Positions 1 to 16,699 of a stretch of 64,000 nt of DNA are shown here, in pieces (positions within the stretch are counted from its first letter, which is position 1; each line of letters begins with the position of its first letter). The DNA is taken from contig NZ_CP134227.1 of assembly GCF_031656915.1 (NCBI RefSeq), forward strand, positions 2,852,001-2,916,000, given 5' to 3'. The stretch comes from Nocardioides marmorisolisilvae (lineage in GTDB: Bacteria > Actinomycetota > Actinomycetes > Propionibacteriales > Nocardioidaceae). The notes beneath the pieces were generated by a model, which searched no databases, had not been told where the DNA came from, and was given only the letters and a program-made list of their open reading frames with translations. The translations under genes were made by a program, and so were the position numbers.

Positions 1-1436
1 CCAGGGTCATGTTCAGCGATCCCGTTTCCAACCCGCCGCTCACCGGACCGGAAGACATCGTCATACCGATGCGGACCGAAGCCCACGAACGGTCGGAACG
101 GCACACGCTCGAGGTTCGTGGGCTCCACCCTGCGCACAGTCAGCGGAGGAACCGTATCGATCAGGTCGCCAAAGAGATCCCCCGCGAGGCTCTTCGGATA
201 GGGCTCGATGTATTGCACCTCGACGATCCCAGCGCCGATAATGAACTTGGTGCACTCGTGGCACGGAAAGGTAGTGGTGTACAGGCGTGCCCCGGCGATC
301 GCCACTCCGCTTCTGGCGGCATCGACGATCGCGGCCTGCTCCGCGTGCAAGCAGCGGGTGAACTCGATCAACGATTTCGCGCGAGTTCCGTCCAGCACGG
401 ACCTGCCGTTGGCGTCGGGTGCGGTCGCCTCGCGCAAGATCGCATTGCCGCCGGCCGCGTTTCGTTCCTCAGTGAAGTACCGCGCCTTCGCAAGGCGATC
501 GATCAGCTCTCGGATGACCCGCTCGGTGTAGGCAGGGTTGGGGTCGGCCCCAGCCTGGAAGTCGCGGTGATCGGGCTCGTCGCCCTCCCGATACTGACCG
601 CCGCCGGGCCTCGGCACCTCGTTCGTCCCTGGCAAATACGGTGTACCCAACCGGGGAACGATGACCGCACCAACTTGTCGACCGATGGCAGCGGACCTCA
701 GTGCGGCCGCTTGGGCATGTCGCATCGCCTCCTCGTCCGCGGTCGGTGTCAGGAACGGAGCCGCGAAGACACCGCGCACGAATCGCTCCACCTCCCGGCG
801 CCACTGACCACCCCGTTGGACGGGTAGGAAGAAGTCGGCCTCAGAGAACACGTCCCGGACGTGCTGACCATGCGCTGCGTCGGGATCAGCTTCGTCGCGT
901 GCGATCAGGGCGGCGGCGCGTGCCTCCGGGGCGGCCGAGAAGCTCCCCTCCTGCTTGGCCAGGACGTCTGCGAGGTTCGTCGTGCGAACGGCGCTGTCCT
1001 CCACGATGGAGACGAGCCAGAACGCCGTGCCGTACACACTCTTCAGCAGGTCTGCTTCACGCGGGTGCTTGAGGCTGTCGAATACGAAGCAGGTGGGCTG
1101 TGGACCGTCGCCTTCGCTCGGCTGGCGAATGCTCGCGACACGCGCAACGGCCATTGCGGCTAGGGCACTGTCGTCTCCAGCTCCTCGGCGCAATCGGTCG
1201 CCCGCGTCCATCCGCGCCTCGTAGTACCCGCGATCCGTGAGGCGAGGAAGCGGGTCGGCGGTCGGAGCCACCGCGTCGAGCAGGTCAGCGAGTCGGACGT
1301 GCTCGACGCGATAGTCGTATGGGCGAAGAGTCGCGATGAGCGCCTTGACGACCTGGGCCCGGCTGGAACCGATTGGCGCCACCAAGCCGAGGAAGACGTC
1401 GTGACGCTCCGGCTCGTCGTCGGCGAGTCTCTTCAA
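1..1436 (-). CDS. Anti-phage-type dCTP deaminase with N-terminal P-loop-like domain (3' end outside window)
   Basis: The frame stays open from about 1481 to the left edge, so the C-terminus is missing; about 478 residues are visible. The C-terminal half is a zinc-dependent nucleoside deaminase: a HAEQAAI motif near residue 362 (zinc His and catalytic Glu) and FPCHEC near residue 391 (two zinc Cys), followed by VQYIEPYPKS, typical of dCMP/dCTP deaminases. The N-terminal half has a degenerate nucleotide-binding start (LVAPIGSS) and FVFDSLKHPRE, the layout of the anti-phage dCTP deaminases that drain the dCTP pool during infection. The start is uncertain: a stop lies at 1484-1482 and the first usual start codon after it is TTG at 1436, with a weak ribosome site. 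It is transcribed away from the operon starting at 1797. The family call is by motif and layout only. Confidence 0.8.
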   Translation of the reverse strand, partial: MKRLADDEPERHDVFLGLVAPIGSSRAQVVKALIATLRPYDYRVEHVRLADLLDAVAPTADPLPRLTDRGYYEARMDAGDRLRRGAGDDSALAAMAVARVASIRQPSEGDGPQPTCFVFDSLKHPREADLLKSVYGTAFWLVSIVEDSAVRTTNLADVLAKQEGSFSAAPEARAAALIARDEADPDAAHGQHVRDVFSEADFFLPVQRGGQWRREVERFVRGVFAAPFLTPTADEEAMRHAQAAALRSAAIGRQVGAVIVPRLGTPYLPGTNEVPRPGGGQYREGDEPDHRDFQAGADPNPAYTERVIRELIDRLAKARYFTEERNAAGGNAILREATAPDANGRSVLDGTRAKSLIEFTRCLHAEQAAIVDAARSGVAIAGARLYTTTFPCHECTKFIIGAGIVEVQYIEPYPKSLAGDLFGDLIDTVPPLTVRRVEPTNLERVPFRPFVGFGPHRYDDVFRSGERRVGNGIAEHDP

Positions 1437-1770: not shown

Positions 1771-1787
1771 CTTTGACAGTGTCAAAG
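1771..1787. promoter_or_regulatory. Palindromic operator candidate
   Basis: CTTTGACA, one G, then TGTCAAAG form a perfect 8+8 inverted repeat between the likely promoter and the Shine-Dalgarno AAAGGAGGT (1784-1792) of the first gene. A protein bound here would block transcription and ribosome access. The XRE-type regulator encoded third in the operon is the natural candidate binder; that link is inference. Confidence 0.5.
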
Positions 1788-1796
1788 GAGGTCGTC

Positions 1797-2258
1797 ATGC
1801 CAGACGGCGATGTATTCACCCGCGGAGTGGCGCGACGGTGGCGAAATCTGGCTGCGGCGTTGCGTGATGGCCTGCCAGCGGAAGAGTGCGCTCTGCGAAT
1901 CGAGCACAGCCTCGCAGCGGAGCTTCGTAAAGCTGGCGGGCTCGCCCGCCCAGGCCTTGAGGACCTGCTGAATGCCGACGCCGTCGATGAAACTCAAGTT
2001 GCCGTCAGGCTCGGGGAGTTGGTTCGACGTGAGGTGTTCGAACGAGTCATGCCTCTTCTGGTCGCGCAGGAAAAGTTCGCCAACTATGGGCAGGCTCAGC
2101 GGTTCATGACGATGTGCGTCAAAACGGCCCGCATGGACGTGCTTGCGCGAAGCCTGGTGAGTCACCCGGATGGCAAGGGCCTGCGGCGACCGGGTCGTAA
2201 GAGGTCGTCGACCGCGGACCTGTTGAGCGAGCCCGCATCAATGGGTGGGCGCGCGTGA
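1797..2258 (+). CDS. Unknown 153-aa protein, first gene of QueC-like/ImmA/PIN operon
   Basis: I do not recognise this family. The protein is mostly predicted helix, with Arg/Ala-rich amphipathic stretches (RWRNLAAAL, LRIEHSLAAELRKAGG) and a basic tail around residues 125-135. It has no signal peptide or membrane segment. The start is ATG 1797, preceded by a near-perfect Shine-Dalgarno AAAGGAGGT at 1784-1792; the longer frame from 1740 would run through the operator. Its stop overlaps the GTG of the next gene (GTGA), so translation is probably coupled. Being first and strongly translated, it could be a substrate or partner of the QueC-like enzyme, but nothing in the sequence proves this. Confidence 0.75.
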   Translation: MPDGDVFTRGVARRWRNLAAALRDGLPAEECALRIEHSLAAELRKAGGLARPGLEDLLNADAVDETQVAVRLGELVRREVFERVMPLLVAQEKFANYGQAQRFMTMCVKTARMDVLARSLVSHPDGKGLRRPGRKRSSTADLLSEPASMGGRA

Positions 2259-3511
2259 CGAAGGCGCACCACGTCAACCGCAACGACGACTACATACTCG
2301 ACCTCGACGGCGGCGTCTCCGCGCTGGTGTCAGATCTCTTGTCGCTCTGCGAGCAAGCCTTCCTGGCCGATCGAAACCGACCTCGGGGCAAGGATCCAGA
2401 CAACCCCAACTGGCATCGAACCCTTGAAATCGAGGTCCCCGTTGCCAGTGTCGACCTCTGGTCCAGCGCACCAGCCTTGGACCAGGCAACTGAACTGCTG
2501 ACCTGGCTGACTGACGATGATTGGCAGATCCAATTCGTAGGAGTCAGCCGCGCTCAGCAGGCGACCCAGCGTCAGCTGAACATCGACCCAGTCGAGCGTA
2601 CGGTGATGCTCTTTAGTGGCGGCTTGGACGCCACGGCGGGCGCCGCGCTGCTTCTCCCAGAGACTCCCATACTCGGGGTTGGCGTCGTAACCAACCCGGT
2701 GATGGGTAGCTACCAACGCCGAGCCCATGCGGCGCTGACCCAGCTGGGGGACATTCGCTACTCCCCAGTGCTGTTCTCCGTAGTCAGCGGAGGAGTGAGC
2801 GACAATGAACCGACTCGCCGAACGAGAGGACTGGTCTTCCTCGGCGTCGGCGTGGCTGCGGCGCTGCAGCGCGGGACTCGACGGCTCGTGGTGGCCGAGA
2901 ACGGCATTGGCGCGCTCAACCTGCCATTAACGGGCGCTCAGTCCGGCGTCATGACGAGTCGAGCAGTCCATCCGAAGTCCCTGCGACTGATGGCTGCGCT
3001 AATCAGCGAAGTGACGGGCACGGAGTTCGTGATCGACAACCCGTTCCTCACCTCGACCAAGGGGCAAATGGTGCGTGCTCTGCCACCGGAAGCGCGTGAG
3101 GCGTGCGGACACAGCCAGTCCTGCGACAACGCGGCCGCTGGACGTGGCCCGTTGGAGAAGCGCTGCGGCCATTGCACGTCGTGCTTGCTTCGCCGCGTCT
3201 CATTTCATGCGGCCGGCCGCTCCGACTGGGACGCCCTTCCATACCTCATCGACTCTGACAAGAGAGAGCCGAGGTGGCGGTTGCCTGAGGTGCTCTGGCA
3301 AGCCGCTACCTTCGACGCCGTGCTCCGCTCAACCGAAGACAGCGCCCTCCTTCGACAGTTCCCGGACCTCCGGCACGTTCTCGAGTCGGAGCTTGCCCAT
3401 GACAACTTGCGTGACTTGCTCGCCACCTATGTCGAGGAGTGGCGGTCATTCCCTGACCCGAACATCAGTCGCTTCCTGCCCCAAATAGACCGAGGATCGG
3501 TGCTCGCATGA
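2255..3511 (+). CDS. QueC-like (7-cyano-7-deazaguanine synthase family) protein
   Basis: An ATP-pyrophosphatase-type enzyme of 418 residues, longer than a housekeeping QueC (about 220). Residues 1-115 are an extra N-terminal region. The PP-loop SGGLDATAG sits at residues 121-129. Near residues 284-313 four Cys (SCDN, then CGHCTSC) match the zinc site of QueC, and NPFLTSTKGQMV matches the QueC segment before it. Housekeeping QueC makes preQ0 for queuosine; relatives in Qat and type IV CBASS defence systems have been co-opted. No other queuosine gene is in the window, which favours a defence or modification role. GTG start at 2255 overlaps the previous stop; its own stop overlaps the next ATG. 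Confidence 0.8.
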   Translation: MTKAHHVNRNDDYILDLDGGVSALVSDLLSLCEQAFLADRNRPRGKDPDNPNWHRTLEIEVPVASVDLWSSAPALDQATELLTWLTDDDWQIQFVGVSRAQQATQRQLNIDPVERTVMLFSGGLDATAGAALLLPETPILGVGVVTNPVMGSYQRRAHAALTQLGDIRYSPVLFSVVSGGVSDNEPTRRTRGLVFLGVGVAAALQRGTRRLVVAENGIGALNLPLTGAQSGVMTSRAVHPKSLRLMAALISEVTGTEFVIDNPFLTSTKGQMVRALPPEAREACGHSQSCDNAAAGRGPLEKRCGHCTSCLLRRVSFHAAGRSDWDALPYLIDSDKREPRWRLPEVLWQAATFDAVLRSTEDSALLRQFPDLRHVLESELAHDNLRDLLATYVEEWRSFPDPNISRFLPQIDRGSVLA

Positions 3512-4704
3512 CCGTTGCAAGCGACGTGCCGCTGCCAGTCTTGGGTGCACGTCTGCGAGAGGCGCGACGCGCACGCGGGATGTCCCAGGCCGACGCCGCC
3601 GCCGGCATCGGTGTGAGCCGACCAACGCTCATTGCTGTTGAGCAAGGCAAACGAGTGCCGGCGGCTGCCGAACTCGTTGACTTCGCCCGCCTCTATGGAC
3701 GCGACGTGCACGAACTAGTGCGAGACACGCCACCTGTTGAGGCACTCACGGCGAGATTCCGTGCCGCCGAGCAAGGCTCGCGCGACACTCAGGCCGCTGT
3801 CGATGAGCTACAGCGCCTGGCCGACGATGTTCACGAACTTGAGCTCAGCGAAGGTCTGACTACCCAGCGCCGTTGGCCCGACGAATACGACGTGGCCGGC
3901 CTCTCGTTAGCGGCTGCCGCCACTTTGGCCGCAGACGAGGAACGCAAGCGCCTCGGCCTCGGCGACGGACCACTGTCGAATCTACGACAGGTGCTCGAGA
4001 GCGATGTGGGCCTCCGGGTGTTCTCGCTGTCCATGCCCTCAGCCGTTGCTGGACTATTCGCCGTCGTCGAACCTGTCGGGGCGTGCATCGGCATCAACTC
4101 ACGCCACCCCTTCGAGCGCCAGCGCTGGACGCTTGCGCACGAGTACGGCCACTTCCTGTTGCATCGCTACTCAGCCGAGGTCACGAGCGTGGTCCCCGGT
4201 AGGTCGCGGGACGAGCAGACCGCCGAGGCATTCGCGGCGGCGTTCCTCATGCCCAAGGACGGGCTCATCCGGCGCTTCCAGCAGGCCAGACGGCAGCGTG
4301 GAGGAACGGTTACCGCAGTAGACGTACTCCAGCTCGGCGCCGCCTACGAAGTCTCCGCCCAAGCCATGGCACTCCGTCTAGAGGACCTCGAACTGCTGGC
4401 TGGCGGCTGGTGGGACAGCCTCGTCCAGCGCGGACTCAAGGTTCAGGAAGCCCGAGACACCCTCGGCATAGCAATCCAGTCGCGTGACGAAGATACGGTG
4501 CCGAAACGGGCCCAGTATCTCGCCGTGGAGGCCTTCCTTGAGGGTCGATTGTCGGAGGGTCGCCTCGCCCGCCTTCTCAGACTTGATCGAGTCGCAGCGC
4601 GCGACGTCGTGCATCGTCTGGCGGGCAGTCAAGACGTCGCGCACGAGGGGGAAACGCAACGGTGGCTCTGGGAGCCGGAACCCGAAACCCAGGCCAGTGA
4701 CTAA
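3508..4704 (+). CDS. XRE-family HTH regulator fused to ImmA/IrrE metallopeptidase
   Basis: A 398-residue protein. Residues 12-65 form a classic XRE/Cro helix-turn-helix (LREARRARGMSQADAA, then GVSRPTLIAVEQGKR). Residues 165-270 are an ImmA/IrrE zinc peptidase with HEYGH at 211-215 and the downstream EAFAAAFLMP segment carrying the third ligand. Such proteins usually repress their own operon and are inactivated by self- or partner cleavage, often with a toxin beside them. The start ATG 3508 overlaps the QueC-like stop (ATGA). It is followed, with an 8-base overlap, by a PIN-domain gene, an arrangement typical of toxin-antitoxin pairs. It is the best candidate to bind the palindrome at 1771-1787. 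Confidence 0.9.
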   Translation: MTVASDVPLPVLGARLREARRARGMSQADAAAGIGVSRPTLIAVEQGKRVPAAAELVDFARLYGRDVHELVRDTPPVEALTARFRAAEQGSRDTQAAVDELQRLADDVHELELSEGLTTQRRWPDEYDVAGLSLAAAATLAADEERKRLGLGDGPLSNLRQVLESDVGLRVFSLSMPSAVAGLFAVVEPVGACIGINSRHPFERQRWTLAHEYGHFLLHRYSAEVTSVVPGRSRDEQTAEAFAAAFLMPKDGLIRRFQQARRQRGGTVTAVDVLQLGAAYEVSAQAMALRLEDLELLAGGWWDSLVQRGLKVQEARDTLGIAIQSRDEDTVPKRAQYLAVEAFLEGRLSEGRLARLLRLDRVAARDVVHRLAGSQDVAHEGETQRWLWEPEPETQASD

Positions 4705-5233
4705 CGGCGATCCTCTGCTCCTGGACGCCTGCGGATGTATCAACCTAGCTGCCGCATTCGCTCTCGAGTCCATTTCTGCAAACCTCGAGCGGCCCATTTA
4801 CATCGTCGAACAGGCAGCCTCGGAAACGCTGTTCCTCCATCAACAGATCGACGGCGAACGCGTCAAGGTTCAGATCGATGTCGAAGCCATCCCGGCCATT
4901 AGGCTCGATGGTGATCCCGAGCTCGAACTCTATGTGCGACTCGCAAGGCAACTCGGTGATGGTGAAGCGGCTTCTCTAGCCATCTCGCATTTCCGACAGC
5001 TAGAGCTCGTGACCGACGACCGCACCGCTCGCAAGATTGCAGGCAGGGAAGCACCGAACGCACGCATTCGAGGCACCGCAGAGACCCTCAGGGCGCTGAC
5101 CACTTCGATGGCACTACCCGACGACGAGGTTGCGCGAGCACTACGCCGAGTGGAATCTCATGCCAGTTTCCGCCCGCCACACGACGACCCCGAGCTGTCG
5201 TGGTGGATGTCTGCGCGTGAGCTCGCGGAGTAA
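4697..5233 (+). CDS. PIN-domain protein (putative RNase toxin)
   Basis: A 178-residue protein with the acidic pattern of PIN nucleases: LLLDACGCINL (Asp10), GDGEAASLA (Asp88/Glu90) and LVTDDRTARKIA (Asp107/Asp108). The nearest described group is the DUF3368-like PIN proteins that follow ImmA/IrrE regulators. The most likely role is Mg-dependent RNA cleavage, held in check by the preceding regulator. The start is GTG 4697, inside the end of the upstream gene; a longer frame from 4484 lies wholly within that gene and is unlikely. It closes the four-gene operon; the next gene faces it from the other strand, and 5234-5319 shows no clear terminator. Confidence 0.75.
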   Translation: MTNGDPLLLDACGCINLAAAFALESISANLERPIYIVEQAASETLFLHQQIDGERVKVQIDVEAIPAIRLDGDPELELYVRLARQLGDGEAASLAISHFRQLELVTDDRTARKIAGREAPNARIRGTAETLRALTTSMALPDDEVARALRRVESHASFRPPHDDPELSWWMSARELAE

Positions 5234-8375: not shown

Positions 8376-10014
8376 CCTGGATCCACCGACGGTGAATTCG
8401 GATCTCTGAATTCCTGATGGTGGGGCGGCTTCGGCGAGCGAGGCGTGGCTGGCCCGCCGGCCGGTGCCGGCTCTTCCACGTAGAGGTCCTCGGTAGTGCC
8501 GTCGCCGGCTGGGTGGTCAGGTCGCGACGGCGGTTGGCGGGTCGGTCGCGGTCGACCACAACAACTCCCAACTGCTGGCCCATGGCCAGTGTTGTGGCAG
8601 GTGCACGACCAGACGCCTGCCGGTGGACGCGATCCGGGCGGGGATGTTGATGATCCGGGTGCGCAGGGTGGCCCAGCGTGCGGTCCGCAGCGAGGCTGCG
8701 ACACCGGTGGCACGGGCGATGTTGAACGCGAGCACGGCGTGCGCGACCCAGGCGGCGTTCGCTGCGTACTTGCCCGATGGCAAGTGCGCGAGCGGCCCGT
8801 CCTTGAGCTCGGCGATGACTTGCTCGACCAGGGCGTGGTCACGATGACGCTGATCGGCCTCGATCATCGACAGGATGCTGTTGGTGATGAACGCGTGGTG
8901 GCGGTAGGCGGCGAACAGTTCGCCCTGCTCGGTCCCGTCGCCGGCCAGCGGTTGCAGTCGCTTGACCCGGCGCACGACCAGCCGGCACGCGACCTGCTCG
9001 GCCTTGCGGCGGCCGGTGAAGGCGGTGAACGGAATCTCGGCGACCTCGGCGTCGCTGACCCAGCGGTCCTCGGCCTCGTCGTAGACGGCGTTGGGGTAGG
9101 CGATCGGCGTCCAAGCGTCCTCCTCGATGCTGGCGATCGCCTTCACCACGGCCGGGTTCATCCGGGCGGTCACGCTGAACCAGGCCCGGTGGCGGATCGC
9201 GGTGCCCACGAAAGCCCACCCGTAGTAGGCCGAGTCCGCCCGGCACAGCACCTGGCCCTTCACCCCGGCAGCACGGGCAGTGGTGATCGCCTGGGCAAGC
9301 AGACGTCCGGCACCGGTGTGGGAAGCGGTGTTGCCCTTGCGGAGTCGGGCGCGGGCAATCATCGGCGCCGCCAGCGGGGTGCTGATCGTGGCCAGTTGCA
9401 GGTTCAGACCGCGGACCCCGGAGTAGCCGAACGCGGCGCCCTGCTTGGCGTGCCCGTGGACCTCGCGGATGGTGTCGTCGACATCGAGGAACGCGATCCC
9501 CTCGCGGCCGTGGGAACCGGCGATCAGGTCGGGGACCCGGACGGCGAGTCCGGCGAGGATGTCGGCACCGATCTTGTCGAGCTGTTGGACGTGGCCGTGG
9601 GTGAAGCAACGCAGGAACGTGCCCAGCGTCGAGGGCGCCCGCACCCCGGCGAACAACCGGCTCATCCCGCCGTGCCGCAGCAGGTCGAGGTCATCGATGG
9701 AGTCCGCGCCGGCCAGCATCCCGCCAATCACAGCCGCGGACTTCGCGGCCGCGTTGGCCGAGGACACGCTCAGCTCGTCGAGCAGGTCGTACAGACCCGC
9801 GGACTCAGCCAGCCGAAGAGCCGGAACCAGGCCCGCCGCCGACACCAGGTTGGGATCATCGAAGACAGGGCGGATCGTGTGAGAAGGTTTCACTTACGAG
9901 GTGCCCTTCGTGAGCGGCGGATTCGGACCCTAGACAAGCCCGATTCTCCCGTCCCACAAGGGCATCTCTGCGTTACGGCACGCTCACGACCCGACACTCA
10001 TCGGTGGATCAGGG
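8376..10014 (-). mobile_element. IS1380-family insertion sequence nested in istA
   Basis: Imperfect terminal inverted repeats: CCTGGATCCACCGA at 8376-8389 and, inverted from 10014, CCCTGATCCACCGA (12 of 14 identical). The sequence is flanked by CTCAG at 8371-8375 and 10015-10019, a 4-5 base target duplication as expected for IS1380. It is 1,639 bases long with one transposase gene. The nesting order shows it arrived after the IS21 element. Confidence 0.9.
8517..9893 (-). CDS. IS1380-family transposase
   Basis: A 458-residue DDE transposase of the IS1380/IS4 superfamily. It shows the conserved N-terminal MLAGADSIDDLDLLRHGGM, the first catalytic region FLDVDDTIREVHGHAKQG, the second CRADSAYYG, and the C-terminal HRDHALVEQVIAELKDGPL with the catalytic Glu. 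Length is normal for the family and no stop or frameshift is seen, so this inner element may still be active. It reads in the same direction as istA. Confidence 0.95.
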   Translation of the reverse strand: MKPSHTIRPVFDDPNLVSAAGLVPALRLAESAGLYDLLDELSVSSANAAAKSAAVIGGMLAGADSIDDLDLLRHGGMSRLFAGVRAPSTLGTFLRCFTHGHVQQLDKIGADILAGLAVRVPDLIAGSHGREGIAFLDVDDTIREVHGHAKQGAAFGYSGVRGLNLQLATISTPLAAPMIARARLRKGNTASHTGAGRLLAQAITTARAAGVKGQVLCRADSAYYGWAFVGTAIRHRAWFSVTARMNPAVVKAIASIEEDAWTPIAYPNAVYDEAEDRWVSDAEVAEIPFTAFTGRRKAEQVACRLVVRRVKRLQPLAGDGTEQGELFAAYRHHAFITNSILSMIEADQRHRDHALVEQVIAELKDGPLAHLPSGKYAANAAWVAHAVLAFNIARATGVAASLRTARWATLRTRIINIPARIASTGRRLVVHLPQHWPWASSWELLWSTATDPPTAVAT

Positions 10015-10187
10015 CTCAGAGTTCACCGCCTTGATGACCGTGGTCCGCGAGATCCCCAACCGTGCCGCGATCCGTGCCTTCGGCACCCCCTCAGCAGCCA
10101 GCCTCCTGATCAGCGCCCAGTCCTCCAAAGTGATCACACTCCAATCGTTGAGTGTTCACTTTTCACCGCCGAAACTGTTCAATTTTC

Positions 10188-10201
10188 GAGCGCCGCCGAC
10201 A
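10188..10201 (-). repeat. IS21-family right terminal inverted repeat
   Basis: Inverted exact copy of 6387-6400; the second ATGCT target copy follows at 10202-10206. Confidence 0.9.
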
Positions 10202-10942
10202 ATGCTTACTGCCGGCGCGCTCAGCCTCCAAGATCGCTGCTTGAAGATCTGCTGTCTGCGCAGGAGACAAATCCTGCAAGGCGGGCTTCAGAATTCTGCG
10301 CTTGCGTGAATCGAGACGTTCCCAATCGAGTCGAGGCGGATCGAAGCCTTCGGAGAGCGCTTCAAGTGAAGCCACGTAATCGGTGTAGGCCTGCGTCGGA
10401 TCCTCGACGCAGCGACGTGCTGCATTCACAATCCGTCTGATCGCTCGCAACGCCCGTTCGTACTGCGGTCGGCTCAGGGCCAGCAACTGACCGATGAAGA
10501 CCCTTGCATCGTCAATCTGCTCATCGGTGACACGTAGGTCGTTGTCGAACATCCGGCTGATGAACGCGCCCCGCCGGGTGCGGGGGCGACGCGACCGCTC
10601 ACCGATCAGATGCCGGGCGCGATCATGATCGAGATCGAACACGGCATTGAAGGCGAAGGACAAGATCGCCGCGAGGTCCTCGTACATCTCTTCCCCGCCG
10701 GTCGACACGAGGAACTCATCTGTCCCGTCGGGCCGCGTCGCTTCGAGGCGTTCGACGAGCGTGACCCACAGTGCGGTCGCTCCGTCGGTCGCCAACGAGG
10801 TCTCCGGTGACATCGAACCTATGCCGATGTCGATCTGGTCTCGACCAATCAGTTGGAGGTTGCAGTAGATGGGCCGCCGGTGCTCGGTCTCGTGCAAGGT
10901 GACGCCATCTCTGAAGTAGATGCCTGTGGAGACCTGAAGCAT
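10202..10942 (-). pseudogene. 5' part of the unknown ~600-aa gene interrupted by IS21-family insertion
   Basis: It encodes the first 247 residues; the rest is at 5320-6386. The N-terminal 60 residues are beta-like, followed by a helical region with many Arg/Asp (RARHLIGERSRRPRTRRG) and a segment (RRIVNAARRCVEDPTQAYTD) loosely like HEPN/Apea-like proteins. That resemblance is weak and not a claim of function. As it stands the frame runs into the IS end and stops after the added residues CRRRSKIEQFRR. The 192 bases upstream (10943-11134) show no gene. Confidence 0.7.
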
Positions 10943-11134
10943 GAAGAAAGCCTTGCATGCCTGCCCGACGACGCTCCCGGAGGCAAGATGGTCAGCCGGC
11001 CGAACACTTAGTCTTGCTCAGACCCACGGAGTGTCATTCCGCCGCGAATGCCCGATCAGCCAGCCGGGCCCCCGGCACTACGTCACGCCGGGCACAGCCT
11101 CACCCGATACGCGATCACCGCTCGGCGAAGATGC

Positions 11135-11794
11135 CTACGCGACGAGTTCGCCCGTGAGGCGGACGAGCAGACGCATGTGCATGCCCGCCTCGGCTGGGTT
11201 CACTCGATCGACGACAAGCTCGAACGGGCGCTCGATGATCCGGTGTACGTAGTCGAGCAACGGGTCCGGGACATATCCGATGCGGTCACCGGTCTGCCTC
11301 ACCAGCAGGGCGCGCTCGTTGAACTCGTTGTCTGGCTCGCAGCGCAGATCGAGACGATCGCCTGGCTTCAGGCCATCGATCGCGGCGCGCTCCTCTGGCG
11401 TCAGGTGTCGGATGCCGTGGACGAGGAACGGCAAGTTGACAGGTCCCGGTTGCGGCAGTGGAGTCAGCTCGTAGGTGTCGCCGGTGCGACCTCCGCCCGA
11501 TACGGCTAGCACTTCAAGCGGCTCAGCCTCGACGCCGAGACCCAACTGCTCCAGCGTTTCGGCCCGTTCGGGTCGGTGAGGGTCCATGACCCGCTCAGCG
11601 AAGATCGGGAAGAGGGACTCGCTCTCGTGCACTCGCTCGAGCGGAAGTCCCGGCAGAGCTCGCGTCACGCCGTCGTCGTACTTGAAGTAGAAGGTGTGCC
11701 CGTCGTGGCTCAAGACGCCCACGCGGCTGTAGTGCCGGGTTTCGGGGTCCTGTCGACTGACAAGTAGCTCATCAGTCTTCAGTAGCGTGGCCAT
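11135..11794 (-). CDS. HIRAN-domain protein with HipA N-domain-like start (HipA partner)
   Basis: A 219-residue protein with two parts. Residues 1-80 (VGVLSHDGHTFYFKYDDG, then LPGLPLERV and LFPIFAERVMDP) resemble the N-terminal subdomain of HipA kinases. The second half is a HIRAN domain (GLKPGDRLDLRCEPDNEFNE, then RIGYVP), a fold that binds DNA 3' ends or damaged DNA in Rad5/HLTF. The start is ATG 11794 with the strong ribosome site AGAGGAGGT; the gene overlaps the end of the kinase gene by 23 bases, so the two are coupled. HipA is normally one chain; here the N-domain appears moved to a partner, as in HipS of the HipBST type. That comparison is inference. Confidence 0.75.
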   Translation of the reverse strand: MATLLKTDELLVSRQDPETRHYSRVGVLSHDGHTFYFKYDDGVTRALPGLPLERVHESESLFPIFAERVMDPHRPERAETLEQLGLGVEAEPLEVLAVSGGGRTGDTYELTPLPQPGPVNLPFLVHGIRHLTPEERAAIDGLKPGDRLDLRCEPDNEFNERALLVRQTGDRIGYVPDPLLDYVHRIIERPFELVVDRVNPAEAGMHMRLLVRLTGELVA

Positions 11795-12677
11795 GGCACA
11801 ACCTCCTCTGATTCTCGAGCACCACCTGCTCCATGAAGGTAGACGCGACCTCCGACAGTCTCCCTTGAGGTGCTTCAAGTGTCTCCCGAATAGCGACCTC
11901 GTCCAAGGCAGCGACCCGCGCTACCCAGAGATCTGCACCACTGCGCCGAATGGCCTCAAGCGCCAGGTCCACGAGTAGCTGCTTTCGTGGCGAGAACGGA
12001 TTCGCTCGCCCTCGCCGCGCAAATGCCAGGGGATCCTTGTCCCCTCTGTTGTCGTCTGTCAGCCCCGCGCCCAACGCGCTGCCATGGTCGAAGGTCGGTG
12101 CGAGGAAGCGGGCGCCGTCGCTCTGGCGTTCCAGGATCGCCCAGTTGCCCGGATGCCGGTCGCCGTTCCCGACCAGTGCGTCGAGGACCAGGTAGCCGGC
12201 GAACACAGCGAACCCTGACAGGTCACTGACCCCCGGTGGGGACGCGACGTGTTCGAGGACCCGCTCCATGGAGTCGAGCGTGTAGCCCTCGTCGAGTCGC
12301 ATGCGACCATCATCGGAATCGGACCCGGCGGATGGCCGACGTTCGTAGCCCTCCACCTCGGGCAGATAGGTCGTGCCGGTGTTCAAGTTGAAGCCGTGGG
12401 GCGTGACGTTGCGGGAGATCAACCCGGGTTTGCCATCGAGTATCGCGAACCTGCACTCCGCTGCGGGTAAGTCGATCGCGGCGGCGAGGCGCGAAGTGAA
12501 GACCTCGGCACAGTCCGTCAACGCCGCTTCGGAGCCGTCGCCAGTCGTCTGGCGATATTTCCACAGCCAGTGTTGATCGCGGGGTGCGTCGGGGTCCTCT
12601 GCGATCCACCGCTTGTTCTTGTCGCGCCCGCCCGGCTCGTCACGGATGACGGTCCAGGCCGACACGTCAATCTCCAC
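11772..12677 (-). CDS. HipA-type Ser/Thr kinase domain protein
   Basis: A 301-residue protein of the HipA C-terminal kinase family. It has a likely ATP-binding Lys (LWKYR, Lys40), the catalytic loop GNGDRHPGNWAIL (Asp173, Asn178) and the metal-binding PTFDHGSALG (Asp197). HipA kinases phosphorylate tRNA synthetases or other targets and act as growth-arresting toxins. It lacks the N-terminal HipA domain, which seems to be in the following gene. Start is GTG 12677 with GGAGAG upstream. No HipB antitoxin is adjacent; the nearest HTH gene is the excisionase-like protein at 12852-13070. Confidence 0.85.
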   Translation of the reverse strand: MEIDVSAWTVIRDEPGGRDKNKRWIAEDPDAPRDQHWLWKYRQTTGDGSEAALTDCAEVFTSRLAAAIDLPAAECRFAILDGKPGLISRNVTPHGFNLNTGTTYLPEVEGYERRPSAGSDSDDGRMRLDEGYTLDSMERVLEHVASPPGVSDLSGFAVFAGYLVLDALVGNGDRHPGNWAILERQSDGARFLAPTFDHGSALGAGLTDDNRGDKDPLAFARRGRANPFSPRKQLLVDLALEAIRRSGADLWVARVAALDEVAIRETLEAPQGRLSEVASTFMEQVVLENQRRLCHGHATED

Positions 12678-13110: not shown

Positions 13111-13330
13111 ATCCCCCAAGGCCGAGATCTGTCCTCCAGTGGCCACCCCATTTCCATCCCTTCCTTCGTCGTCCTCCCGCCCGCCTCCTCCTTCCCTGTC
13201 CGCCCCCCTCTCCTGCCCTCACTTCTTCACCCTCCCCCTGTCCTCATCCCTCACCTCCTCCTTCCAAACACACCTCTTTCACTGGCGAACCGGGGTGGCC
13301 ACTGGCGCCGCGGTTTGGGCCTTGGGGGAT
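13111..13330. other. Long interrupted inverted repeat around a pyrimidine tract: oriT or regulatory candidate
   Basis: Two perfect inverted pairs face each other: ATCCCCCAAGGCC (13111-13123) with GGCCTTGGGGGAT (13318-13330), and CCAGTGGCCACCCC (13136-13149) with GGGGTGGCCACTGG (13292-13305). Between them about 130 bases (13150-13280) are almost only C and T on the plus strand. The right outer arm ends at the GTG of the relaxase gene. Relaxase genes commonly sit next to their oriT, so this is a reasonable oriT candidate, but no nic site is identified. Confidence 0.5.
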
Positions 13331-16300
13331 GTGACGATGACGCTGAAGAAGCTCGCCGCCGGGTCGGGCTACGAGTACCTGACTCGCCAGGTCGCAGCGG
13401 CCGATTCGACCGAGCTCGGCAAGACCCCGCTGGCTGAGTACTACGCCGCCAAGGGCGAGGCGCCCGGCCGCTGGGTCGGCTCGGGGCTGGCCGAGATCCA
13501 AGGCGTCGAGTACGGCGACGTGGTCACGGCCGAGCAGATGCGACACCTGTTTGGCGACGGCTGCCATCCGGTGATGGGCACTGGGTTGGGCCGGAAGTTC
13601 GGCAAGAGATCGGTCGCCGGGTTCGACCTCACGTTCAGCCCGGCCAAGTCGGTCGCGACCCTGTGGGCGGTCGCGCCGCCCGAGTTCGCGCGGGCGATCA
13701 AGATGGCGCACAACGCCGCCGTACTCGACGCGCTGGCCTTCCTGGAGAGCCACGGGACCTTCACGCGCGAGGGCGCCGGCGGCGCTCGACAGGTCGAGAC
13801 GCGTGGTCTGATCGCGACCGCGTTCCTGCACCGCGACTCCCGCGCGGGCGACCCGGATCTGCACACCCACGTCGCGGTCTCGAACAAGGTCCAGACCATG
13901 CAGGGCAAATGGCTCTCGATCTACGGGACGATCCTGCACGAGCATGTCGTCGCCGCCTCCGAGGCCTACAACACCGCGCTCGAGGCTCACCTCCACGATC
14001 AGCTCGGCGTCCGATTCATCGACGTCCCACGAGCCGCGGGCAAGCGGCCGGTGCGCGAGATCGCCGGCGTCGACCCAAGGCTCTCCGCACGTTGGTCCCG
14101 CCGTAGGACCGACATCGAGGAGCGAGTCGAGGAACTCGCAGAGGAGTTCACGGACAACCACGGCCGCCGCCCGAACGACAAGGAGCGGATCGTGCTCGCG
14201 CAGCGCGCGAACCTGGAGACGCGGTCGGCCAAGCACGAGCCACGCTCCGAGGCGGAGCAGCGCACGACCTGGCATGGCGAGGCAGCGGACCTCCTCAGCG
14301 AACGCGGTCTGCGGGCCATGGTTGACACGGCGCTCCACCCCGATCCGGCACCCACCCAGCCGGTCTCCGCGGCCTGGCTCACCGAAGCTGCCCATCGGGT
14401 GATCCGCGAGCTCGAGGCGCATCGCGCGAGCTGCCAGAGCTGGCACATGTACGCCGAGGCGCAGCGCCAGGTCCGGGGCCTCACCCTCGCGCCCGAGCAG
14501 ATTCCCCAGGTCATCGAGCACCTCGTCGATGCCGTCACGGACCAGTTGATCAACCTGACGCCCGACCTCGACCCGATCACCGAGCCGGCCGCGCTCAAGC
14601 GTTCCGATGGCGTCAGCGTGTATCGCCACACGGGCGCGGACCACTTCACCAGTACGCGGATCCTGGAGGCCGAGGCCCGGGTCGTTGACGCCGCCGGCAC
14701 CGATGCCAGCACAAGTCCAGATCCGGTCGATGTTGACCTGGCGCTGATGACAGCCGCCCTTGAAGGGCCGGCGCTCAACGACGGCCAGCGGGAACTCGTG
14801 CGCAGCCTCGTCGCCGACCCGCGCCGGGTCGCGCTCGCCCTCGCGCCGGCCGGCTCCGGCAAGACCACCGCGATGAGCGTCCTCGCCCAGGTCGCCCACG
14901 ACCTCGGATACGACGTCGTCGGCCTCGCGCCATCAGCGGCCGCAGCCGCCGTGCTCACCGACGCGACCGGCATCCCCTCCGAGACCCTCGCCATGCTCGA
15001 TCACTCCCTCGTCGCCGGCCTGGATCCCGGGTTCGGGCCGCACACGATGGTGGTCGTCGACGAGGCCGGGATGTCCGACACCCTCACCCTCGACCGGATC
15101 ATCACCGCCTGCACCGGCCGAGGTGCACGAGTACGGCTGGTCGGCGACGACCAGCAGCTCGCCGCGGTCGGCGCTGGCGGCGTCCTGCGCGACATCGCCA
15201 CCACGCATGGAGCCGTGCGTCTCGACCAGGTAGTGAGGTTCGACGATCCCGTCGAGGCGTCGGCGTCGCTCGCACTGCGCGACGGCGACCGCACGGCGCT
15301 GGGGTACTACCTCGACCACGACCGCATTCACACCGGCGACGAGCTCACGAGCCTCACCGAGGTGCTGGCAGGGTGGCAGGAGGACGCCACTGCCGGCCGC
15401 GAGTGCCTGATGCTCGCGCCCGCTCGCGACCTTGTCGCCCGGCTCAACCACGCCGCCCGCAAAGCCCGCCTCACTGGCGTGCGACCTGAAGACGAGGTCG
15501 ACCTTGCCGACGGCAACCAGGCCTCGGTTGGCGACACGATCCTGACCCGCCACAACGAGCGCCGCCTCGGCGTCAGCGGCACCGACTGGGTCAAGAACGG
15601 CGACCGCTGGACCGTCACCGCGCTCGCCGCCAACGGCGGCCTGCGTGCTCGACACCTGCGGTCCGGACTCCAAGTCACGCTGCCGCGCGAGTACGTCGCC
15701 CACCACGTCGAGCTCGGCTACGCCACCACCGTCCACGCCGCCCAAGGCAGCACCGCGGACGTCATGCACGGCATCCTCACCGGGCACGAGGACCGGCAAC
15801 TGCTCTATACGATGCTCACCCGCGGCCGCTTCGAGAACCACCTCCACCTGATCGACGAGCCGATCACGCCGGAAGAGCAGTTCCTGCCCGGGATCGATGA
15901 GCAGATCACCGCCGTCGAGGCACTCGACCGGATCATCGCCCGCGACGGCGCCGCGACCTCCGCGACCACCGAGCTCACCCACGCCACCAGTCCCTCAACG
16001 CTGCTGCACGAGGCCGCAGGCAGGTACGCCGACGCCGTCACCGCCGCCACCCAGCGGCTCTCTGGCGCGGACGCCGACATCGCTCTCGAAGCGGCGGGCG
16101 CCGGCCCGCTCCCGTGGCTGCCCGGCGTCCCCGCCGCCCTGCGCAGCGATCTCGATTGGTCGGAGTACCTCGACGCTCGCGCCGAGCGCGTCCGCACCCT
16201 CGCCGACGCCGTCTGTCGCGACGCACACCTCCCGCCAAGCTTGCGGCGCTTCGATGACGTGCTTACCGACCAGCTTCGCGAGGCGGTAGTCGTCTGGCGA

Positions 16301-16699
16301 GCCGCCAACGGCGTTCCCGACGACGACCGGGGCCTCCTCGGCCCACGAACCAACGACCTCGCCGCCGACCGCTACGCCCGCCACCTCCAGCGCCAGGTCG
16401 ACGCCCTCTATCCCGAGTCAGTCCGGCGCTGGGAAGCACAGATTGCCCGGGCGATCGGCGACCTGGACCACCGCGACGACCGCACCCTCGACCTGGCTCG
16501 GGAGCTCGACCGCATTCAAGGCAGCGGTCTCAACGCCACCCAGATCCTCCGTCGCGCGGCCACCCTCCGACGCCCACTCCCTGACGACCGCAGAGTCGAA
16601 GCCCTGGCCTACCGGATCGAGCGCATCGCCGCCAACGACGCCGCACTCCGGCCGCAGACCCATCAGCCGAGCCGGCGGTCACCCGGCATCGGACTCTAG
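13331..16699 (+). CDS. MobF-type conjugative relaxase fused to RecD-like helicase (TrwC/TraI/TraA family)
   Basis: An 1122-residue protein. The N-terminal TrwC relaxase domain (1-300) has candidate catalytic tyrosines in GSGYEYLTRQ (residues 12-21) and the metal-binding HTH triad in DPDLHTHVAVSN near residue 177. The C-terminal half is a superfamily 1 helicase: Walker A APAGSGKTTAM near 506-516, Walker B VVVDEAGMSD, GDDQQLAAVGAGG, HAAQGST and MLTRGR. It would nick oriT and lead the strand into a recipient. GTG 13331 follows a G-rich stretch; ATG 13337 is equally possible. A frame extending to 13139 reads through the pyrimidine tract and is not credible. No secretion genes are nearby, so the element may be mobilisable only. 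Confidence 0.95.
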   Translation: MTMTLKKLAAGSGYEYLTRQVAAADSTELGKTPLAEYYAAKGEAPGRWVGSGLAEIQGVEYGDVVTAEQMRHLFGDGCHPVMGTGLGRKFGKRSVAGFDLTFSPAKSVATLWAVAPPEFARAIKMAHNAAVLDALAFLESHGTFTREGAGGARQVETRGLIATAFLHRDSRAGDPDLHTHVAVSNKVQTMQGKWLSIYGTILHEHVVAASEAYNTALEAHLHDQLGVRFIDVPRAAGKRPVREIAGVDPRLSARWSRRRTDIEERVEELAEEFTDNHGRRPNDKERIVLAQRANLETRSAKHEPRSEAEQRTTWHGEAADLLSERGLRAMVDTALHPDPAPTQPVSAAWLTEAAHRVIRELEAHRASCQSWHMYAEAQRQVRGLTLAPEQIPQVIEHLVDAVTDQLINLTPDLDPITEPAALKRSDGVSVYRHTGADHFTSTRILEAEARVVDAAGTDASTSPDPVDVDLALMTAALEGPALNDGQRELVRSLVADPRRVALALAPAGSGKTTAMSVLAQVAHDLGYDVVGLAPSAAAAAVLTDATGIPSETLAMLDHSLVAGLDPGFGPHTMVVVDEAGMSDTLTLDRIITACTGRGARVRLVGDDQQLAAVGAGGVLRDIATTHGAVRLDQVVRFDDPVEASASLALRDGDRTALGYYLDHDRIHTGDELTSLTEVLAGWQEDATAGRECLMLAPARDLVARLNHAARKARLTGVRPEDEVDLADGNQASVGDTILTRHNERRLGVSGTDWVKNGDRWTVTALAANGGLRARHLRSGLQVTLPREYVAHHVELGYATTVHAAQGSTADVMHGILTGHEDRQLLYTMLTRGRFENHLHLIDEPITPEEQFLPGIDEQITAVEALDRIIARDGAATSATTELTHATSPSTLLHEAAGRYADAVTAATQRLSGADADIALEAAGAGPLPWLPGVPAALRSDLDWSEYLDARAERVRTLADAVCRDAHLPPSLRRFDDVLTDQLREAVVVWRAANGVPDDDRGLLGPRTNDLAADRYARHLQRQVDALYPESVRRWEAQIARAIGDLDHRDDRTLDLARELDRIQGSGLNATQILRRAATLRRPLPDDRRVEALAYRIERIAANDAALRPQTHQPSRRSPGIGL

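Follow-up and report, generated by a model that had tools for sequence, protein, structure and literature searches.

The stretch analysed here (hereafter the window) comprises 64,000 nucleotides (nt) of the Nocardioides marmorisolisilvae genome (contig NZ_CP134227.1, positions 2,852,001 to 2,916,000, forward strand) and carries a four-gene operon whose members are designated B, C, X and P in their order on the strand (Table 1). B encodes a small protein, C a QatC-type enzyme of the QueC family, X a fusion of an XRE DNA-binding domain to an ImmA/IrrE metallopeptidase and P a PIN-type nuclease; the four genes very likely constitute one conserved system. The four open reading frames (ORFs) described in an initial annotation made from the sequence alone are present, all on the plus strand, and this set-up is far from chance. 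Neighbouring genes overlap by 4 nt at B/C (GTGA) and C/X (ATGA) and by 8 nt at X/P, so that the stop-start sharing ascribed by that annotation to all four genes applies to the first two junctions and not to the third. The strong ribosome site and the palindrome that it had placed ahead of the operon are both present, the palindrome being perfect about a central G and overlapping the Shine-Dalgarno string.

Table 1. Features of the window (coordinates counted from its first nucleotide)
Feature	Position	Strand	Description
Gene B	1797–2258	+	153-amino-acid protein, predicted all-helical, N-terminus MPDGD...W15; no Pfam, PADLOC or NCBIfam match
Gene C	2255–3511	+	QatC-type QueC-family ATP pyrophosphatase, 418 amino acids; PP-loop S121–A126, Cys 290/304/307/310
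Gene X	3508–4704	+	XRE helix-turn-helix and ImmA/IrrE (M78) metallopeptidase, 398 amino acids; H211-E212..H215
Gene P	4697–5233	+	PIN-type nuclease, 178 amino acids; D10, E43, D88, D107
Shine-Dalgarno aaaggagg	1784–1791	+	From sequence; precedes ATG 1797 of B
Operator palindrome CTTTGACAGTGTCAAAG	1771–1787		Core TGACAGTGTCA (1774–1784); overlaps ribosome site
Anti-phage dCTP deaminase by model	3–1436	-	PADLOC dCTPase 1.5e-127; divergent from the operon, cut by the window edge
PADLOC candidate pair PDC-M03B, PDC-M03A	11135–12677	-	5.4e-69, 1.8e-87
TrwC/TraI-type relaxase-helicase	13139–16699	+	About 10 kb from gyrA-gyrB-dnaN-dnaA

The scan of genome contigs started from five aligned C proteins whose loci had been seen to carry X and P, although neither X nor P was used in the search; 288 pattern matches yielded 158 relatives of C, of which the best 80 were analysed. 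C proteins were divided into class I (seven, including that of the window) and class II (78). X and P were called by profile and position, and B of six class I loci and of L085 was located by reading. Among the best 80 of the 158 relatives, X followed C in 78, both X and P did so in 77, and the unit was complete in 72. Incomplete loci were two contig ends (L095 and L103), one locus with X in two pieces (L093), four without a B start by the rule given below (L075, L098, L102 and L116, the B profile matching ORFs in the last three) and L078, in which (positions 9220–11770) X was short, P was not found and the genes that followed were an ORF judged AbiEi-like by eye and another XRE-ImmA gene. Hosts were assigned to phyla by record title because many loci are metagenome-assembled genomes; the titles included Amycolatopsis, Acidobacteria, Chloroflexi, KSB1, Cyanobacteria, Bacteroidota and many Proteobacteria. 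Because the four genes travel together in several bacterial phyla, the unit is probably an immune system and not a chance neighbourhood. Pairwise divergence of the four proteins was correlated over 78 loci (Mantel r 0.887–0.963, with 0 of 500 permutations as high), the permutation ignoring relatedness and shared host ancestry also feeding the r values.

A plasmid search with C retrieved units of Rhizobium WL3, Bosea and Sinorhizobium, annotated in the order hypothetical protein, '7-cyano-7-deazaguanine synthase', XRE regulator and 'DNA-binding' or hypothetical protein, and the same four genes in Sphingobium V4. A class II-type C was carried by 24 plasmid records (14 conjugative, 5 mobilizable), and the whole unit was present in all four that were inspected. 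Within the genus of the window, C occurred in 1 of 24 genomes, namely the window's own; at higher ranks, window C matched 10 of 296 genomes of the phylum and 11 of 394 of the class, the window being counted in both. From the 18 other matched genomes, 14 were examined and four weak ones left out; the unit was absent from these 14 stretches and from the Rhodococcus plasmid L038 (0/15). At least one qatA, qatB or qatD match was found in 12 of these 15 stretches, only C in L021 and L024, and nothing in L033. QatC-like genes without a qatA or qatD match in the stretch were seen in L021, L022, L028 and L029, and other QatC-based systems may exist.

The operator was counted in 79 loci, the upstream stretch of L057 being too short. 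Its motif, TGACANTGTCA, was found at most 150 nt upstream of B as an exact copy in 40 of the 79 loci and within one mismatch in 73, against a rate of 0.0056 per 150 nt in the rest of these loci. Among the 73 loci it was preceded by T in 70 and followed by G in 69, the window having T and A. One exact copy of TGACANTGTCA was present in the 64 kb of the window, and TTTGACANTGTCAAAG was unique across the 4.23-Mb window genome at up to two mismatches. Only 1 of 29 XRE-ImmA genes outside the unit had the operator, and the 15 QatC-like stretches without the unit gave no exact TGACANTGTCA and one-mismatch copies in 3. The operator therefore belongs to the four-gene unit. The motif count was the telling measure here; a shuffle-based palindrome scan was not telling for most loci. 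A TANNNT hexamer 6–10 nt past the operator was present in only 15 of 79 loci, so that occlusion of a −35 box cannot be taken as general. The simplest candidate to bind the operator would be X.

The initial annotation had treated the four genes as one system, and the neighbourhoods of the QueC-like homologues bear this out. Two independent modules that merely adjoin, one QatBC-like and the other XRE-ImmA/PIN, might be suspected on two grounds: among XRE-ImmA relatives that do not belong to the unit, the best 29 in the class included 15 with a P-like gene and none with C within about 1.5 kb, and in one stretch, L020, qatABCD stands beside a divergent XRE/ImmA/PIN set. With 72 of the best 80 units complete across phyla, divergence co-varying at the r values given above, overlapping genes and an operator that precedes all four of them, this explanation was rejected on co-occurrence, operator and co-variation as highly improbable.

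C gave a weak match to Pfam QueC (PF06508, 6.5e-7) and a strong one to the PADLOC QatC model (5.4e-42), and solved QatC chains aligned with it over residues ~24–324 (9vlk, 3.8e-24; 9zee, 1.9e-18). The NCBIfam QatC equivalog NF041925 scored 165.4 bits vs a cut-off of 280, and the model of canonical QueC (preQ0 synthase), TIGR00364, scored 16.4 bits, below its cut-off of 150.3. The 'long extra N-terminus' remarked on earlier is present and is not odd, since the enzyme is QatC-type and the segment corresponds by alignment to the QatC-type N-terminal extension. Residues S121, G123, D125, P240, T268, K269, C290, C304, C307 and C310 were invariant in all 85 C proteins. Of the PP-loop and zinc cysteines that the protein had been said to keep, the four cysteines are therefore universal; the PP-loop is present as SGGLDA, but its last position, Ala126 in the window, is Ser in the other 84 proteins. 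Residue 122 was Gly in only 8 of the 85 and more often D (49), N (15) or E (12). In a tree of 48 C and QatC proteins (28 of the 78 class II rows, 7 class I and 13 other QatC-like), class II was grouped with support 100/100 and class I, including the window, with 88/88, the 13 other QatC-like rows standing apart (88/77); window C had a long branch (1.63), and its closest row by path was Amycolatopsis L041.

Two positions bear on the substrate. QatC T278 and T280, which according to the consulted part of PMC13279940 (PubMed Central, PMC) stand in for the deazaguanine-binding Tyr/Asp of QueC and Cap9, aligned with S235 and A237 of window C (GVMTSRAVHP vs GACSTRTTHP). In class I (n = 7) these positions were occupied by S in 3, T in 3 and A in 1, and then by S in 4 and A in 3. 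In class II (n = 78) the first was Y in 70, with D immediately before it in 77, and the second, which lies past a gap, was mostly N (61/78) and otherwise S/T or another residue. As the Tyr is kept at the first position, class II enzymes could still stack a nucleobase.

The initial annotation had put forward a deazapurine-type modification that the metallopeptidase would sense and the PIN RNase would answer; this division of roles between X and P is a reasonable supposition. No QueC, QueD or QueE match was found in the window genome (one contig, 100% complete by tool), QueE being sought by one model, and host-made 7-carboxy-7-deazaguanine is for this reason unlikely in the window host. Sampled hosts of the unit had QueC over cut-off in 20 of 28 and PTPS (the QueD family) in 20 of 28; QueE was detected in 6 of 11 (one model, E ≤ 1e-5, none over cut-off), and among 14 control genomes this model exceeded its cut-off in 1. 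In G690, which hosts a class II unit and whose completeness is not stated, QueC stayed below the cut-off and neither QueD nor QueE gave a match. The proposal is accordingly not supported, in its host-made form, for the window host, whose donors might be phage-supplied or different; a host-made deazapurine could still apply to the class II relatives, with their frequent Tyr and hosts that often have QueC. It might also be supposed that the product of C is a free, deazapurine-like nucleobase or nucleotide, serving as a mark on nucleic acid or as a signal to X, with B only a scaffold. QueC chemistry yields 7-deazaguanines, the host counts for QueC and PTPS/QueD are compatible with this, and the class II Tyr with its adjacent Asp is reminiscent of the QueC/Cap9 Tyr/Asp pair; set against the lack of the pathway matches in the window genome and G690, the S/T/A and A/S of class I, to which the window belongs, and the fixed N-terminus of B, which a protein substrate explains better, this supposition is quite unlikely.

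B starts were called by a rule that required x-D-[GAK] directly after the start codon (the alternatives A and K were admitted for L044 and L043). Such an M-x-D-[GAK] start was available for B in 80 of 85 loci; the same rule applied to ORFs of the other genes found it in 9/84 (C), 6/83 (X) and 13/82 (P). The count of D3 in B is forced, because the rule demands it, and is bounded by the rates for C, X and P. Residue 2 of the 80 starts was T in 38, S in 31, P in 8, R in 2 and V in 1, and never Gly; residue 4 was G in 78 and residue 5 was P in 71, and a Trp was found within residues 13–20 in 70 of the 80 proteins. Thr, Ser or Pro at position 2 normally permits removal of the initiator Met. A Shine-Dalgarno-like string (loose definition) preceded all 79 testable starts; B of L043, only 94 amino acids long and perhaps broken, was scored as present. 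The N-terminus M-(T/S/P)-D-G with a Trp near position 15 echoes that of QatB, which QatC is thought to modify: QatB begins with MGTS, has conserved P16 and W18, and its tail was modelled in the QatC active site and is required in vivo (PMC13279940, consulted in part). The 153-residue protein is likely the protein partner of the QueC-like enzyme, as had been suggested.

Among 46 B proteins run against Pfam, two stray weak matches were obtained, and window B used as a query against plasmids gave no match, so that B is found only through its neighbours. Predicted structures of B from L059 and from the window (mean predicted local distance difference test scores, pLDDT, of 90.5 and 83.0) were both all-helical with a less certain N-terminus; a Foldseek search of these models against the PDB returned nothing at E ≤ 0.001, in a library that may lack QatB entries. 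A C-terminal D-x-G-P-like motif (loose pattern), echoing the N-terminal DGP, was also seen within the last ~14 residues of 67 of 80 B proteins and in 0 of 7 of class I.

X was matched by Pfam to XRE and M78 domains (PF06114, 1e-19), in line with its earlier naming as an XRE-ImmA/IrrE protein, and by PADLOC best to RmrA models (1.3e-34), with further matches to the regulators CapP (7.1e-18) and CapH (6.5e-6) of the cyclic-oligonucleotide-based anti-phage signalling system (CBASS). The M78 HExxH residues H211, E212 and H215 were kept at ≥95% of 84 sequences. Window P had no Pfam match, matched three weak PDC-S70 models and nothing else in PADLOC, and its profile gave no match to solved chains. 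Its designation as a PIN nuclease was upheld through its relatives, since 9 of 23 scanned proteins matched PF01850 PIN (best 2.5e-7) and D10, E43, D88 and D107 were invariant in 23 of 23 proteins compared.

With the same parts and the reverse logic, a guard model would have X/P silenced in the healthy cell by the B-C complex or modified B, and P set free once a phage attacks C, ATP or the cofactor pool. In 77 of the best 80 loci C does precede X and P, and B-C looks like an added control layer because XRE-ImmA genes, such as the 29 mentioned above, exist without it; the model is nevertheless unlikely, as QatBC alone gives some defence in Qat according to the consulted part of PMC13279940, which suggests an active and not a guarding role. 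A further rival is a toxin-antitoxin operon that serves addiction or replicon maintenance and takes no part in defence against phages. In its favour, toxin-antitoxin function was predicted for operons of the XRE-COG2856-PIN type (PMC2701414, in the part consulted), and 24 plasmid records carry class II C. Such an operon would leave the ATP-using QatC-type enzyme and its conserved partner unexplained, chromosomes carry some of the units (that of the window lies on a single 4.2-Mb contig, and the record of L059 has the title chromosome 1) and neighbours include defence genes, so that it is improbable.

For the neighbourhood, 139 ORFs were called at 18 loci and 120 were scanned, with no background count or tally of ORFs matched; the families matched included Gabija GajB, type IIG restriction-modification, reverse transcriptase, AbiEi and dGTPase. 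In the window itself, the distance of the relaxase-helicase from gyrA-gyrB-dnaN-dnaA suggests the possible arrival of a conjugative element close to the origin of replication. An anti-phage role of the four-gene unit is likely.

We favour a single self-regulated, probably anti-phage system in which a QatBC-like protein-modification core is joined to an XRE-ImmA/PIN toxin-antitoxin arm, and regard this reading as having an even chance of being right. One recurring gene order, co-varying divergence and a shared palindromic operator are its observed parts; for the mechanism, modification of the B N-terminus by C with X/P as the effector arm is the best model, about as probable as its negation. 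X would bind the TGACANTGTCA operator, repress the operon and keep P inactive. C, fuelled by ATP, would act on the flexible N-terminus of B (mature Thr/Ser/Pro-Asp-Gly-), by analogy with the proposed action of QatC on QatB and of Cap9 on its CD-NTase (cGAS/DncV-like nucleotidyltransferase), and the molecule joined to B would in the window host be unlikely to be host-made 7-carboxy-7-deazaguanine. Infection would change the B-C complex or the state of B; B would then trigger the M78 domain of X (self-cleavage or release), the operon would be derepressed, and the freed PIN nuclease P would cut RNA and stop the infected cell. In its most specific form, a toxin-antitoxin system gated by protein modification, C would attach to the N-terminal Thr/Ser/Pro of B a molecule that is not host-made 7-carboxy-7-deazaguanine, and the N-terminus so modified would make X release the PIN RNase in infection; this version is tentative and rather doubtful.

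Several results weigh against the favoured reading. That B is a QatB homologue was rejected (hhalign to the QatB profile, probability 0.1), and the B profile found no QatB among solved chains, whereas the QatB profile recovers QatB 9zee_A and 9vll_A. The essential Gly2 of QatB and CD-NTase is likewise missing from the B starts, so that the substrate role of B rests on position and N-terminal motif. Because Ala replaces the PP-loop Ser kept in the other 84 C proteins, the window copy of C may be impaired, weakened or adapted, and because the recognition positions differ (S/T/A vs Y, then A/S vs N/S/T), class I and class II may not share one substrate. Viral contigs gave 69 pattern matches and 0 relatives of C, a search of phages with Sphingobium C as query gave no relative, and the defence-island evidence comes without a background count.

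The reaction of QatC and the way in which its modified partner stops phages are stated as open questions in the part of PMC13279940 consulted. The unit adds to Qat and type IV CBASS a further pair of QueC-family enzyme and partner, with the distinct N-terminus M-[TSP]-D-G, and offers a readable output through its PIN nuclease and through a repressor whose operator is defined; its occurrence in a one-contig genome without detected QueC, QueD or QueE can help to tell a deazaguanine from some other small molecule. Toxin-antitoxin parts of the XRE-ImmA/PIN kind would here also have come under the control of a modification enzyme. As qatA adjoins 34.3% of the QatC cluster in the consulted part of PMC13329287, the four-gene unit may help to account for QatC-like genes without qatA.

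The initial annotation knew of no described system pairing a QueC relative with ImmA/IrrE and PIN proteins, and none turned up in the open-licence PMC library, which gave no account of the four-gene unit (the search covered neither subscription papers nor most preprints). What the library did return was structural work on Qat, a mapping of the QueC family, deazaguanylation of N-termini in CBASS, hubs of RosmerTA/ImmA and predictions of XRE-COG2856-PIN systems; the consulted text of PMC13329287 contained none of 'ImmA', 'IrrE' and 'XRE', and that of PMC13279940 none of these or 'PIN domain'. The unit is thus probably an undescribed immune system. With Qat it shares a C homologous to QatC, including N-terminal extension, PP-loop and Cys motif, and, directly upstream with an overlap of 4 nt, a gene for a small, predicted-helical protein whose loose N-terminus is conserved. 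Unlike Qat, it has XRE-ImmA and PIN in place of the QatA KAP ATPase and QatD TatD protein, and profiles of QatA and QatD from four actinobacterial qat loci, which do match Qat loci, gave 0 matches in the stretches of the 80 loci. B has no MGTS (MPDGD in the window) and no detected QatB homology, and T278/T280 of QatC are replaced by S/A in window C and by a Y-R-N-like string in class II. C is therefore QatC-related, but the four-gene unit is not Qat. In L020 (2408–9344) a full qatABCD lies beside divergent XRE, ImmA and PIN-like genes, with no TGACANTGTCA match, and this locus is a possible link between the two.

Type IV CBASS resembles the unit in having a QueC-family enzyme and a partner protein in one operon, in the idea of N-terminal conjugation (N-terminal deazaguanylation has been described in CBASS; PMC11996544, consulted in part) and in regulators, CapP and CapH, that X matches. 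It differs in that the four proteins of the unit had no CD-NTase or Cap10 match in Pfam, PADLOC or NCBIfam, that Cap9 keeps the QueC Tyr/Asp pair and class I C does not, and that the unit's partner starts with M-(T/S/P)-D-G and not with MGGS. X matches the RmrA-type XRE-ImmA antitoxin of RosmerTA at the PADLOC value given above, although the unit is not a two-gene pair with an RmrT toxin, being a four-gene unit in 72 of the best 80 loci. Pairs of XRE-ImmA and PIN proteins are already known (PMC2701414 and PMC10440598, both in part), and the unit resembles XRE-COG2856-PIN toxin-antitoxin systems in its XRE-M78 fusion and PIN gene in one operon, the PIN call resting on relatives; it differs from these and from RosmerTA in that X-P sits behind B-C with its own operator. 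CapH and CapP are a helix-turn-helix repressor and an M78 protease that stand beside a defence operon and control its transcription, whereas in the four-gene unit both domains are combined in the single protein X, fixed between C and the PIN gene.

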